Assembly: GCF_000313615.1 (NCBI RefSeq)
Contig: NZ_AMZQ01000001.1
Span: forward strand, 186,001-250,000
Length of the DNA: 64,000 bases
Direction: 5' to 3'
DNA from: Campylobacter showae CSUNSWCD
GTDB taxonomy: Bacteria; Campylobacterota; Campylobacteria; Campylobacterales; Campylobacteraceae
Below are positions 637 to 62,035 of the stretch, piece after piece (position 1 is the stretch's first letter; the number at the start of each line of letters is the position of its first letter). The translations under genes were made by a program, and so were the position numbers. Under the pieces are notes generated by a model that was given only the letters and a program-made list of their open reading frames with translations, made no database searches and had not been told where the DNA came from.

Positions 637-1060
637 ATATTTTTATTAGGCGGCGAGTTTTCAAATTTACTGCTTAAATTTTAAGCGTCAAATTTACGAG
701 CTATTTTTTGAGTTTAAATTTATCGCAAACCGCCTAAAGTGACCACTTCTGAACGAACAAAATTTATAATCAAATTTAGTCTCGTAGCCGTATTTTATAA
801 AGCGTAGCGATTTTTTAAATTTACCGCACGACAAGCTAAAATTTAACCCAAAACAAAAGCTAAAAGCGACCGCCAAATTTAAACCTCTTAAATTTAAAAA
901 GCAACAACGGCACGAATAAAATTTGGCAGACAAAGCGGTGTTTTGCGCCCCTTGACCACACCCAAATTTCCGCACATTTTCATCTGTCTTTCAAATTTAC
1001 CGAATTTTCAAGGATTTAAGCCTAAAATAACGGCATTTAAATTTAAAACGAAAGATTCAA
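637..1060. other. intergenic spacer packed with AAATTT
   Basis: This 424-base stretch holds no convincing gene, RNA or terminator. I counted 14 copies of the self-complementary hexamer AAATTT, where well under one would be expected by chance at this base composition. Short open frames on both strands here have no ribosome binding site and no recognisable protein character. Confidence 0.7.
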
Positions 1061-21862: not shown

Positions 21863-21886
21863 TTTCTATTCTAAACTTACGCTTCC

Positions 21887-21914
21887 GGGGGCTTAAATTT
21901 AAGCCCCTTTTTTC
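21887..21914 (+). terminator. strong intrinsic terminator after the heme receptor, with AAATTT at its centre
   Basis: The 20-base perfect palindrome GGGGCTTAAATTTAAGCCCC (21888-21907) is followed by a run of T residues. The uptake-like hexamer AAATTT forms its centre. Confidence 0.9.
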
Positions 21915-22196
21915 TATCTTTTATAAAATTTATTCAAATTTAGCTTTGTTTATTTTTGCTATTTGCGTGAGGAAGGTTGCTTTGTAAAATCCGCTCAAAT
22001 TTAACCTGTTTTTGGCGGAGCGAATAAAATTTGGCTACGGAACATCAAGAATAAAACCTAAATTTGAGCGGTTAAATTTGCGAGCGTTTGGCGTCAAATT
22101 TGACGGACGGTTTTTGGTTTTTATATTTTCAAGATGCTGGTATTGGGAGGTAAATTTTGGGGCAAATTTGAAGTTAAATTTGCTACGGTCAAATTT

Positions 22197-22223
22197 AAAA
22201 AGGCGAGCCGAATTTGACTCGCC
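22197..22223 (-). terminator. intrinsic terminator for the Sel1 lipoprotein gene
   Basis: On the minus strand GGCGAG…CTCGCC form a stem around a ten-base loop and are followed by TTTTT (22197-22201). It lies 49 bases past the stop of the gene at 22272. Confidence 0.75.
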
Positions 22224-22271
22224 GTAGTAAATTTAACGCCGAATTTAAATGCGTTAAATTTACAGTTTTTA

Positions 22272-47271: not shown

Positions 47272-47770
47272 GGCAAATTTACGTTTAAATGGGGGCTAAA
47301 TTTTGGTCGTAAATTTAACGGATAGCGGCTTTAAATTTGAGCGGATAAATTTGCGATAAAATTTAAGCCTGAGCGAATTTTGCGCTAAATTTGCCACCTT
47401 AAAATGCACGATGAGGCGGTAAATCTGAGTGAAAATTTTAAAAGCAGCGGACATCACAAGCGGATTTAATGCAGATAAATTTGATCTAGTCGGTGCGACT
47501 ATGGCAAATTTGACGTTTATGCGGCTAAAATCGGTGAGTGTCGGTTAAATTTGATTCACGGGTTTGGTTGTGTAGCGGCGTCAAATTTGACTCAAATTTT
47601 GCAAGCCTTTGCGTCTATTAAAATTATTTCTTCTAAAAGACGCGGCAAAAGCTCAAATTTAAAGCTAAATTTAAGCTCGGCGAGCAAGAGCGGCTTGCCG
47701 AAAAAGCAAGCCAAGCGCGGGATTTTTATGATTTGTTCCGTAGAGATCGTTTGAAATCTACTTGCAAAGA
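47272..47770. other. intergenic spacer very rich in AAATTT
   Basis: In 499 bases I counted 15 AAATTT copies, several in the extended form TCAAATTTGA. Short open frames here (for example 47551-47754 and a 39-codon frame near 47430) are mostly built from those repeats and I do not accept them as genes. Confidence 0.7.
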
Positions 47771-48073
47771 TTATTTCAAGCTATCGATATACTCACTAAC
47801 AGTCGCCATATCCTCGTCGCTTAGGTTTTTGGCGTGCAGCTGCATGACCTTGCCCATGCCGAAGTTATTGTTTGAGCCGTCTTTGTAGCCTTGTAGCGCT
47901 TTTATGCGGTCTTCTTTGCTGATGCTAGTTAGCGCAGGCACTTTGTTTGCGTATTTTACGTCCGCTTTTTCGCCGTGACAGGCTGCGCATTTTTTGTAAA
48001 TAGCTGCGCCGTCGGCCGCAAGTAGAGAAAAATTTAGCGCCAAAACGGCGGTTGCAATGTGATAGATTTTCAT
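47771..48073 (-). CDS. cytochrome c553-type protein
   Basis: A 100-residue periplasmic monoheme cytochrome c with a signal peptide (AVLALNFSLLAADG, cut before ADG) and the heme motif CAACHG near residue 32; a Met ligand is likely in NFGMGKVMQLHAKNLSDEDM. It would carry electrons to the cbb3 oxidase whose assembly genes lie next to it. It closely parallels the gene at 48216; the two are a tandem pair. Confidence 0.92.
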   Translation of the reverse strand: MKIYHIATAVLALNFSLLAADGAAIYKKCAACHGEKADVKYANKVPALTSISKEDRIKALQGYKDGSNNNFGMGKVMQLHAKNLSDEDMATVSEYIDSLK

Positions 48074-61872: not shown

Positions 61873-62004
61873 AACGTAGGCCTTTATTATTTATAAAATT
61901 TAGCCTAAATTTAGCATAAATTTATAAATTTACGGCCGGTTTTTGAGCGATTGCGAGTAAAATTTAGCCAAAAACCGCTTACTGGATTTTAATGATTTTA
62001 TCGT

Positions 62005-62010
62005 TATAAT
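62005..62010 (+). promoter_or_regulatory. -10 element for the O-antigen ligase gene
   Basis: TATAAT in TCGTTATAATGGG lies 26 bases before the ATG at 62036, with TTAAGGAAAAAA as ribosome binding region. Confidence 0.7.
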
Positions 62011-62035
62011 GGGCGTTTAAAATTTAAGGAAAAAA

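Follow-up and report, generated by a model that had tools for sequence, protein, structure and literature searches.

AAATTT as a HIP1-like iterated palindrome and possible preferred form of an RAATTY self-mark in Campylobacter showae

In this study, we analyzed the hexamer AAATTT in a stretch of 64,000 nucleotides of the Campylobacter showae CSUNSWCD genome (contig NZ_AMZQ01000001.1, positions 186,001 to 250,000; hereafter the window), in further parts of the same genome and in related genomes. The excess of AAATTT is, with near certainty, real and genome-wide. As best explanation, which we hold tentatively and with a confidence just short of one half, we propose that AAATTT is a palindrome of the highly iterated palindrome (HIP) type and, among the forms of a methylated RAATTY self-mark, the one preferred locally. 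This mark would be set by an orphan adenine methyltransferase of the CtsM type, and the copies of the word would be kept numerous by biased fixation, most likely via natural transformation.

Exact counting gave 486 AAATTT in the window (7.6 per kb), the top count among all 6-mers, with a mean spacing of 132 bp and a median spacing of 66 bp; among palindromes, TTTAAA follows with 135 copies. Markov models of order 0, 1 and 2 predict 22.5, 82.6 and 101.7 copies, corresponding to an observed/expected ratio of 4.8 for order 2, while the expectations rise to 363.7 for order 3 and 476.0 for order 4. The initial annotation had named the lack of an excess over such a higher-order model as a refutation. 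Almost no excess is indeed left at order 4, but we rejected this test as circular, because its input words AAATT and AATTT are the half-sites and mostly derive from AAATTT itself; 486 of the 639 AATT in the window lie within AAATTT. Outside the window, 2,223 copies were counted in 340 kb (seventeen stretches of 20 kb and one contig of 242 bases, from a genome of 2.12 Mb), i.e. 6.5 per kb and 4.2 times the order-2 expectation, with densities of 4.1 to 8.0 per kb across the stretches. The strong over-representation was first reported from two short intervals of the window. Their counts of 14 and 15 copies are exact, the order-0 chance values of 0.15 and 0.17 are lower than the 0.3 to 0.5 given at that time, and the over-representation turned out larger than first reported. 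AAATTT is self-complementary, exceeds both low-order models and codon shuffles in the window and in the 340 kb, and occurs in coding and noncoding DNA alike with weakly conserved flanks and not as one repeat family, as is typical of a HIP-type word.

For the coding part, genes were called by a simple longest-open reading frame (ORF) rule, which makes the split into coding and noncoding DNA approximate. Window genes contain 313 AAATTT compared to 103.7 ± 7.1 in 100 synonymous-codon shuffles, in which protein sequence and codon usage were kept, and genes of the genome sample contain 1,507 compared to 523. With 356 genes and 15 synonymous shuffles, the z-score of 48 for AAATTT was the highest among the 6-mers with an expectation of at least 15. 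Codon bias had been raised as an alternative; an origin from codon usage or amino-acid composition, e.g. from Lys-Phe pairs, is negligibly probable in our judgment. The Lys-Phe frame 0 does account for a sizeable share of the shuffle expectation (74 of 104), but the excess is found in all three frames (102, 81 and 130 observed in frames 0, 1 and 2 vs. 74, 12 and 18 after shuffling) and is about 7-fold in the two frames not reading Lys-Phe. Also, the noncoding density in the window is three times the coding density (18.2 vs. 5.7 per kb; 14.3 vs. 5.2 per kb in the genome sample), and codon or amino-acid bias was rejected by the synonymous shuffles. Convergent, divergent and tandem gaps are similar in density (16.2, 14.5 and 15.3 per kb), leaving a link to promoters or terminators unsupported. 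The density hardly changes over the first 240 bp or so from stop codons, before the last two bins drop to 7.9 and 9.0 per kb, and ranges from 12.7 to 18.4 per kb within 300 bp upstream of start codons. Among 152 genes of at least 900 bp, one is free of AAATTT, with 0.3 expected.

The sequence contexts of AATT follow RAATTY. In the window, RAATTY forms make up 91% of all AATT, and AAATTT makes up 486 of the 581 RAATTY; sites with no, one and two G number 486, 89 and 6, compared to 484, 92 and 4 expected from independent half-sites. The comparison of AAATTT with its relatives suggested in the initial annotation gave 2.98-fold, 1.20-fold and 0.53-fold of the shuffle expectation for AAATTT, AAATTC/GAATTT and GAATTC in the 356 genes, and contexts in which a half-site carries C or T all reach 0.06- to 0.56-fold, the lowest being CAATTG with 2 copies vs. 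36 expected. In the genes of the window and of the sampled loci L082 to L099, ACATGT is likewise nearly absent (3 vs. 31), as if both words were avoided. In noncoding DNA, AAATTT shows a weak symmetric flank preference, roughly G-T-Y-AAATTT-R-A-C, which is milder or different in other clades, and G directly before the word stands at 0.07, marking a sharp word border.

The genome encodes a single D12 adenine methyltransferase (PF02086), a protein of 363 aa that PADLOC assigned to the type II methyltransferases; its gene lies on contig C19, not in the window. According to passages on the methylome of C. jejuni IA3902, the RAATTY enzyme of that strain is also a D12 adenine methyltransferase (PMC4294202), and a passage on C. 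coli gives a gene length of 1095 bp for the RAATTY enzyme (PMC8627207). C. jejuni takes up only DNA that CtsM has methylated at RAATTY, as stated in passages of PMC10046745 and PMC8468864; these and PMC8627207 agree, in the parts concerned, with what the initial annotation said of CtsM. The C. showae enzyme has the traits of the CtsM type, namely the D12 class, a length of about 360 aa, a DPPY motif and no neighboring endonuclease, none being found within about 1.5 kb of the gene. Its gene is flanked by recA and a menaquinone gene; recA adjoins the methyltransferase gene also in the related genome G038 (loci L201 and L205). Orthologue matches were obtained in 48 of 48 genomes of the own genus (g1), with 57–97% identity in the other 47 (partial in G043, with one stop in G044), and matches of at least 50% identity in nearly all genomes of the groups g2 to g5 and g7 (broken in G132, partial in G143), including 59–62% identity in all four sampled g7 genomes. 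In g6 and g8 to g12, no orthologue or weak matches were found (E-value 8e-33 or weaker; 28–34% identity where listed). An alignment of 29 sequences, three of them from g7, shows the DPPY motif in every one. Judged by class, size and family-wide conservation, the 363-aa enzyme is likely an orthologue of C. jejuni CtsM, and it may methylate RAATTY, including AAATTT, in C. showae. In G132, the orthologue is broken by stops near 185–186 kb of contig C1; as a natural test of enzyme loss this case is uninformative, since its AAATTT ratio of 1.64 is ordinary for g2. The competence gene product ComEC was useless as discriminator, being present in 150 of 150 family genomes.

Word counts in relatives cover 20 of the 48 g1 genomes and 72 of the 150 family genomes, mostly as 20-kb stretches around rho that were picked by hand; the relatives lack statistical independence from one another. 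In 18 of the 20 g1 genomes, AAATTT ranks first among the 6-mers. Of the two exceptions, G002 has 3.9 copies per kb and G037 has 3.5, G042 has 3.7 per kb with AAATTT still on top, and the remaining 17 have about 6–9 per kb at GC contents of 34–48%; density and GC content are not significantly correlated (Spearman 0.31, P 0.17, 21 rows). Over g1 to g5, the order-2 ratio is at least 1.2 in 61 of 63 sample rows (62 genomes, with two rows for C. showae). The two exceptions are the sister genomes G081 and G101, in which GAATTC reaches 16.8- to 24.5-fold and AAATTT 0.5- to 1.0-fold in all four stretches, and 10 of 109 GAATTC lie inside called genes in the two G081 stretches. Around GAATTC, the consensus in these genomes extends to a longer, asymmetric word close to AGGAATTCTAGA, of which 30 exact copies occur in 80 kb. 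These four stretches (L240, L251, L291 and L292) carry arrays of this 12-bp word, with 211 GAATTC in 80 kb, and the arrays resemble a separate signal of the uptake or repeat type. AAATTT is in no excess in the four sampled g7 genomes (0.45- to 0.83-fold). It is in no clear excess in all six samples from g8, g9, g10 and g12 (0.68- to 1.23-fold over order 2), which come from genomes without the orthologue, and it stands at 0.8- to 1.1-fold in the outgroups L002 to L005, four of the 80 loci from a Rho scan with few Campylobacterota. In three enzyme-less loci of g9 and g12 (L169, L235 and L236), ACATGT reaches 2.6- to 5.5-fold over order 2 with 11–14 copies per sample and is possibly another iterated palindrome. 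Among the literature matches listed, none reported an AAATTT excess in such genomes.

For the analysis of gains and losses, three branches were polarised from an alignment of the window to G039, G035 and G038 (91.7, 89.8 and 88.3% identity). AAATTT is somewhat better conserved than the other 63 6-mers consisting of A and T only, both in coding (0.81–0.87 vs. 0.65–0.75) and in noncoding DNA (0.80–0.84 vs. 0.73–0.77). On the three branches, 23 gains were found vs. 9.0 expected and 56 losses vs. 95.8 expected; with rates that leave out AAATTT itself, the expectations are 8.7 and 93.8. Both the gain ratio of 2.56 and the combined ratio rank first of 62 common words, and the loss ratio of 0.58 ranks twelfth, the median word having 1.26 for gains and 0.74 for losses. 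Nonsynonymous losses are not reduced (20 vs. 16.3). A fixation bias toward AAATTT is our preferred reading of this pattern, with a gain-side mutation bias as the less likely alternative.

A deficit of AAATTT in foreign DNA is suggestive only. Genes in which AAATTT has a low share of AATT include those for an IS110 transposase, a ParA-like protein, type IV secretion and type I restriction, and one with an integrase match below the threshold; three of the ten scanned low-share genes matched nothing. In mobile-like stretches, 37 genes have a share of 43%, compared to 73% for 200 other genes; these stretches were chosen post hoc, after their low density had been seen, and differ in GC content (0.39 vs. 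0.48). Searches against plasmids and phages gave no match in one case, a best protein identity of 58% in another and eight weak records in a third; a further search found no relative, and eight matched viral contigs were not used. The locus L099 on contig C11 carries VirB4-, VirB6- and VirD4-like type IV secretion genes, the VirB4-like protein being about 57% identical to C. jejuni plasmid proteins.

A link of any kind between AAATTT and the methyltransferase appears likely to us. The link of RAATTY to a CtsM-type enzyme, first drawn in the initial annotation, is strengthened by the single D12 enzyme, its match in every g1 genome, the dominance of RAATTY among AATT and the alternate GAATTC. 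In the mechanism that we favor, the orphan methyltransferase would mark RAATTY, including AAATTT, and natural transformation, as most likely source of the bias, would admit only self DNA marked in this way. Alleles with more or better sites might then enter recipients more often and spread, resulting in the gain bias, and biased fixation would keep the copies numerous, as with the uptake sequences of Haemophilus and Neisseria. Uptake in C. showae would accordingly depend on AAATTT. Both the switch to GAATTC within RAATTY and the lack of an excess in genomes without the enzyme family are in line with this methylation-uptake mechanism. We put uptake as cause of the accumulation at a little under one half.

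Several points weigh against this mechanism. On the substitution side, 11 other common words match or beat the loss ratio of AAATTT, so that only the gain side is distinctive, losses outnumber gains, and 15 of the 23 gains fall on a single branch, the own one. Because the distinctive substitution signal is gain-side only, we lowered our confidence in the favored explanation to its present level and raised that in a mutational origin, which still remains low. The half-sites act independently of each other, as the order-4 model reproduces. About 7 copies per kb are many more than one for each transformed fragment and exceed what the uptake of fragments of kilobase size should require, so that extra sites should add little. 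The conjugation genes of L099 have the full excess (3.25-fold over shuffles). The orthology with CtsM is presumed from class, size and conservation. Among relatives, the excess is weak in the genus g2 (median 1.7-fold), and the GAATTC of G081 and G101 may belong to another kind of element, as they lie within the asymmetric word. Above all, the four sampled g7 genomes possess the orthologue without any excess, which would fit the mechanism only if these bacteria had lost competence or discrimination or changed the specificity of the enzyme.

Three further explanations have to be weighed against methylation-dependent uptake. The palindrome might be tied to the same methyltransferase and serve the chromosome instead, in recombination, replication control or repair, as proposed for HIP1 of cyanobacteria; we regard this as rather doubtful, if the least so of the three. 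The even density over gap types, the near lack of long genes without AAATTT and the position of the enzyme gene next to recA speak for it. HIP1 is likewise paired with orphan methyltransferases in passages of PMC4390886, and in a passage of PMC4294202 chromosome-stabilizing functions of RAATTY are raised as speculation. Against it, uptake is the sole function with experimental support in the passages on Campylobacter. The MutSL-dependent HIP model (Elhai 2015) was rejected as well and cannot apply here as written, since the MutL_C domain (PF08676) was not found in the C. showae genome, which is 99.78% complete, while the same search detected it in 11 of 14 controls. A bias of mutation or repair that depends on sequence context and produces AAATTT without selection or drive would explain the excess at every kind of noncoding position, the combination of raised gains with an ordinary loss ratio and the apparent independence of the half-sites. 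It is difficult to reconcile with the similar densities in 17 of 20 g1 genomes over a wide range of GC contents and with the preference for the opposite base in G081 and G101, and we know of no mutation process confined to the hexamer AAATTT. We consider such a bias unlikely.

Quite improbable in our view is a structural role, in which short, helically phased A-tracts of the AnTn type would cause DNA bending or serve as binding sites for a nucleoid protein. In noncoding DNA of C. showae, AAATTT pairs are phased with a period of about 10.75 bp (power 3.64, with 300 random placements reaching 2.76 at most), spacings of 15–19 bp occurring at 0.53-fold and of 10–14 bp at 1.46-fold. Flanking TTTT runs share this phase in counts, and TTTT-TTTT pairs reach 2.71 at 11 bp, both values being given with no null run; TTTAAA also is in some excess in window genes (91 vs. 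53.5). In noncoding DNA of C. showae and its relatives, AAATTT and TTTT runs leave a deep gap at 16–18 bp. Such a role is opposed by the sharp word border, by the use of GAATTC in G081 and G101, by AAAAAA (707 vs. 692) and TTTTTT (345 vs. 380) being hardly in excess over shuffles in genes of the genome sample, and by the weak self-phasing of AAAAA and TTTTT (power at most 1.43). Moreover, 13 other g1 stretches peak nearer to 11–11.5 bp (power 4.5–4.9; null maximum 2.4 at 11 bp, 200 placements), and phasing is weak in g5 (power at most 1.7).

The two intervals that first drew attention to the word are merely dense gaps within the genome-wide pattern (Table 1). Across the 27 window gaps of at least 100 bp, the average is 18.2 AAATTT per kb, and both intervals lie in the upper tail (P = 0.02 for 637–1060 and P = 0.04 for 47272–47770, uncorrected), while the gaps at 21863–22271 and 61873–62035 are denser.

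Table 1. AAATTT-dense intervals of the window and an overlapping reading frame (positions within the window).
Feature	Positions	Strand	Context	AAATTT
Gap	637..1060		Between ABC-transporter ATPase gene 133-636 (PF00005) and FliR-type export gene 1061-1822 (PF01311)	14
Mechanical 93-aa ORF	694-975	minus	Overlaps gap 637..1060	
Interval	47272..47770		Beside end of minus-strand cytochrome c gene 47771-48073 (PF00034)	15
Dense convergent gap	21863..22271		409 bp	14
Divergent gap	61873..62035		163 bp; highest density among the 27 called gaps of at least 100 bp	6

As a wider and more speculative possibility, Campylobacter-type bacteria might use a methylation-dependent uptake code with one RAATTY dialect per lineage (mostly AAATTT; AGGAATTCTAGA-like around GAATTC in G081 and G101), a core orphan methyltransferase, transformation-driven fixation and several-fold more sites per kb than known uptake sequences or HIP1. 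If true, this would join the iterated palindromes with orphan methyltransferases to the uptake sequences, at a point where the mark of C. jejuni is already known to be a methyl group. The reason for HIP1-type palindromes has been open since 1995, and relatives with the full excess, with another palindrome, with the enzyme and no excess, or with neither make cause and effect testable.

Among known systems, the uptake signal sequences (USS) and DNA uptake sequences (DUS) of Pasteurellaceae and Neisseriaceae resemble AAATTT in a possible self-recognition during transformation, the high density in gaps, the gain bias and the lineage variants. USS and DUS have 9–12 bp, occur about once per kb and are read without methylation, whereas the core in C. 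showae is a 6-bp palindrome. With the RAm6ATTY mark set by CtsM in C. jejuni, AAATTT shares the recognition pattern, as AAATTT and GAATTC both belong to RAATTY, and the presumed enzyme shares the D12 class (passages of PMC4294202) and the size, with 363 aa compared to the 1095-bp gene in the C. coli passage (PMC8627207). In contrast to that mark, AAATTT dominates among the RAATTY of C. showae, its excess is above that of g2, and its methylation is presumed. AAATTT works most like HIP1 (GCGATCGC): both are palindromes iterated genome-wide far above chance and accompanied by orphan methyltransferases, and in both a few lineages have a replacement palindrome that fits a methyltransferase site, as passages on the HIP1 alternates of cyanobacteria describe (Elhai 2015, PMC4390886). 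Unlike this octamer, AAATTT is an AT-rich hexamer associated with an adenine-type enzyme, occurs at 6–9 copies per kb compared to about one HIP1 per 1000 nt in the same passages, and belongs to a genome without detectable MutL, on which the published HIP1 model relies.
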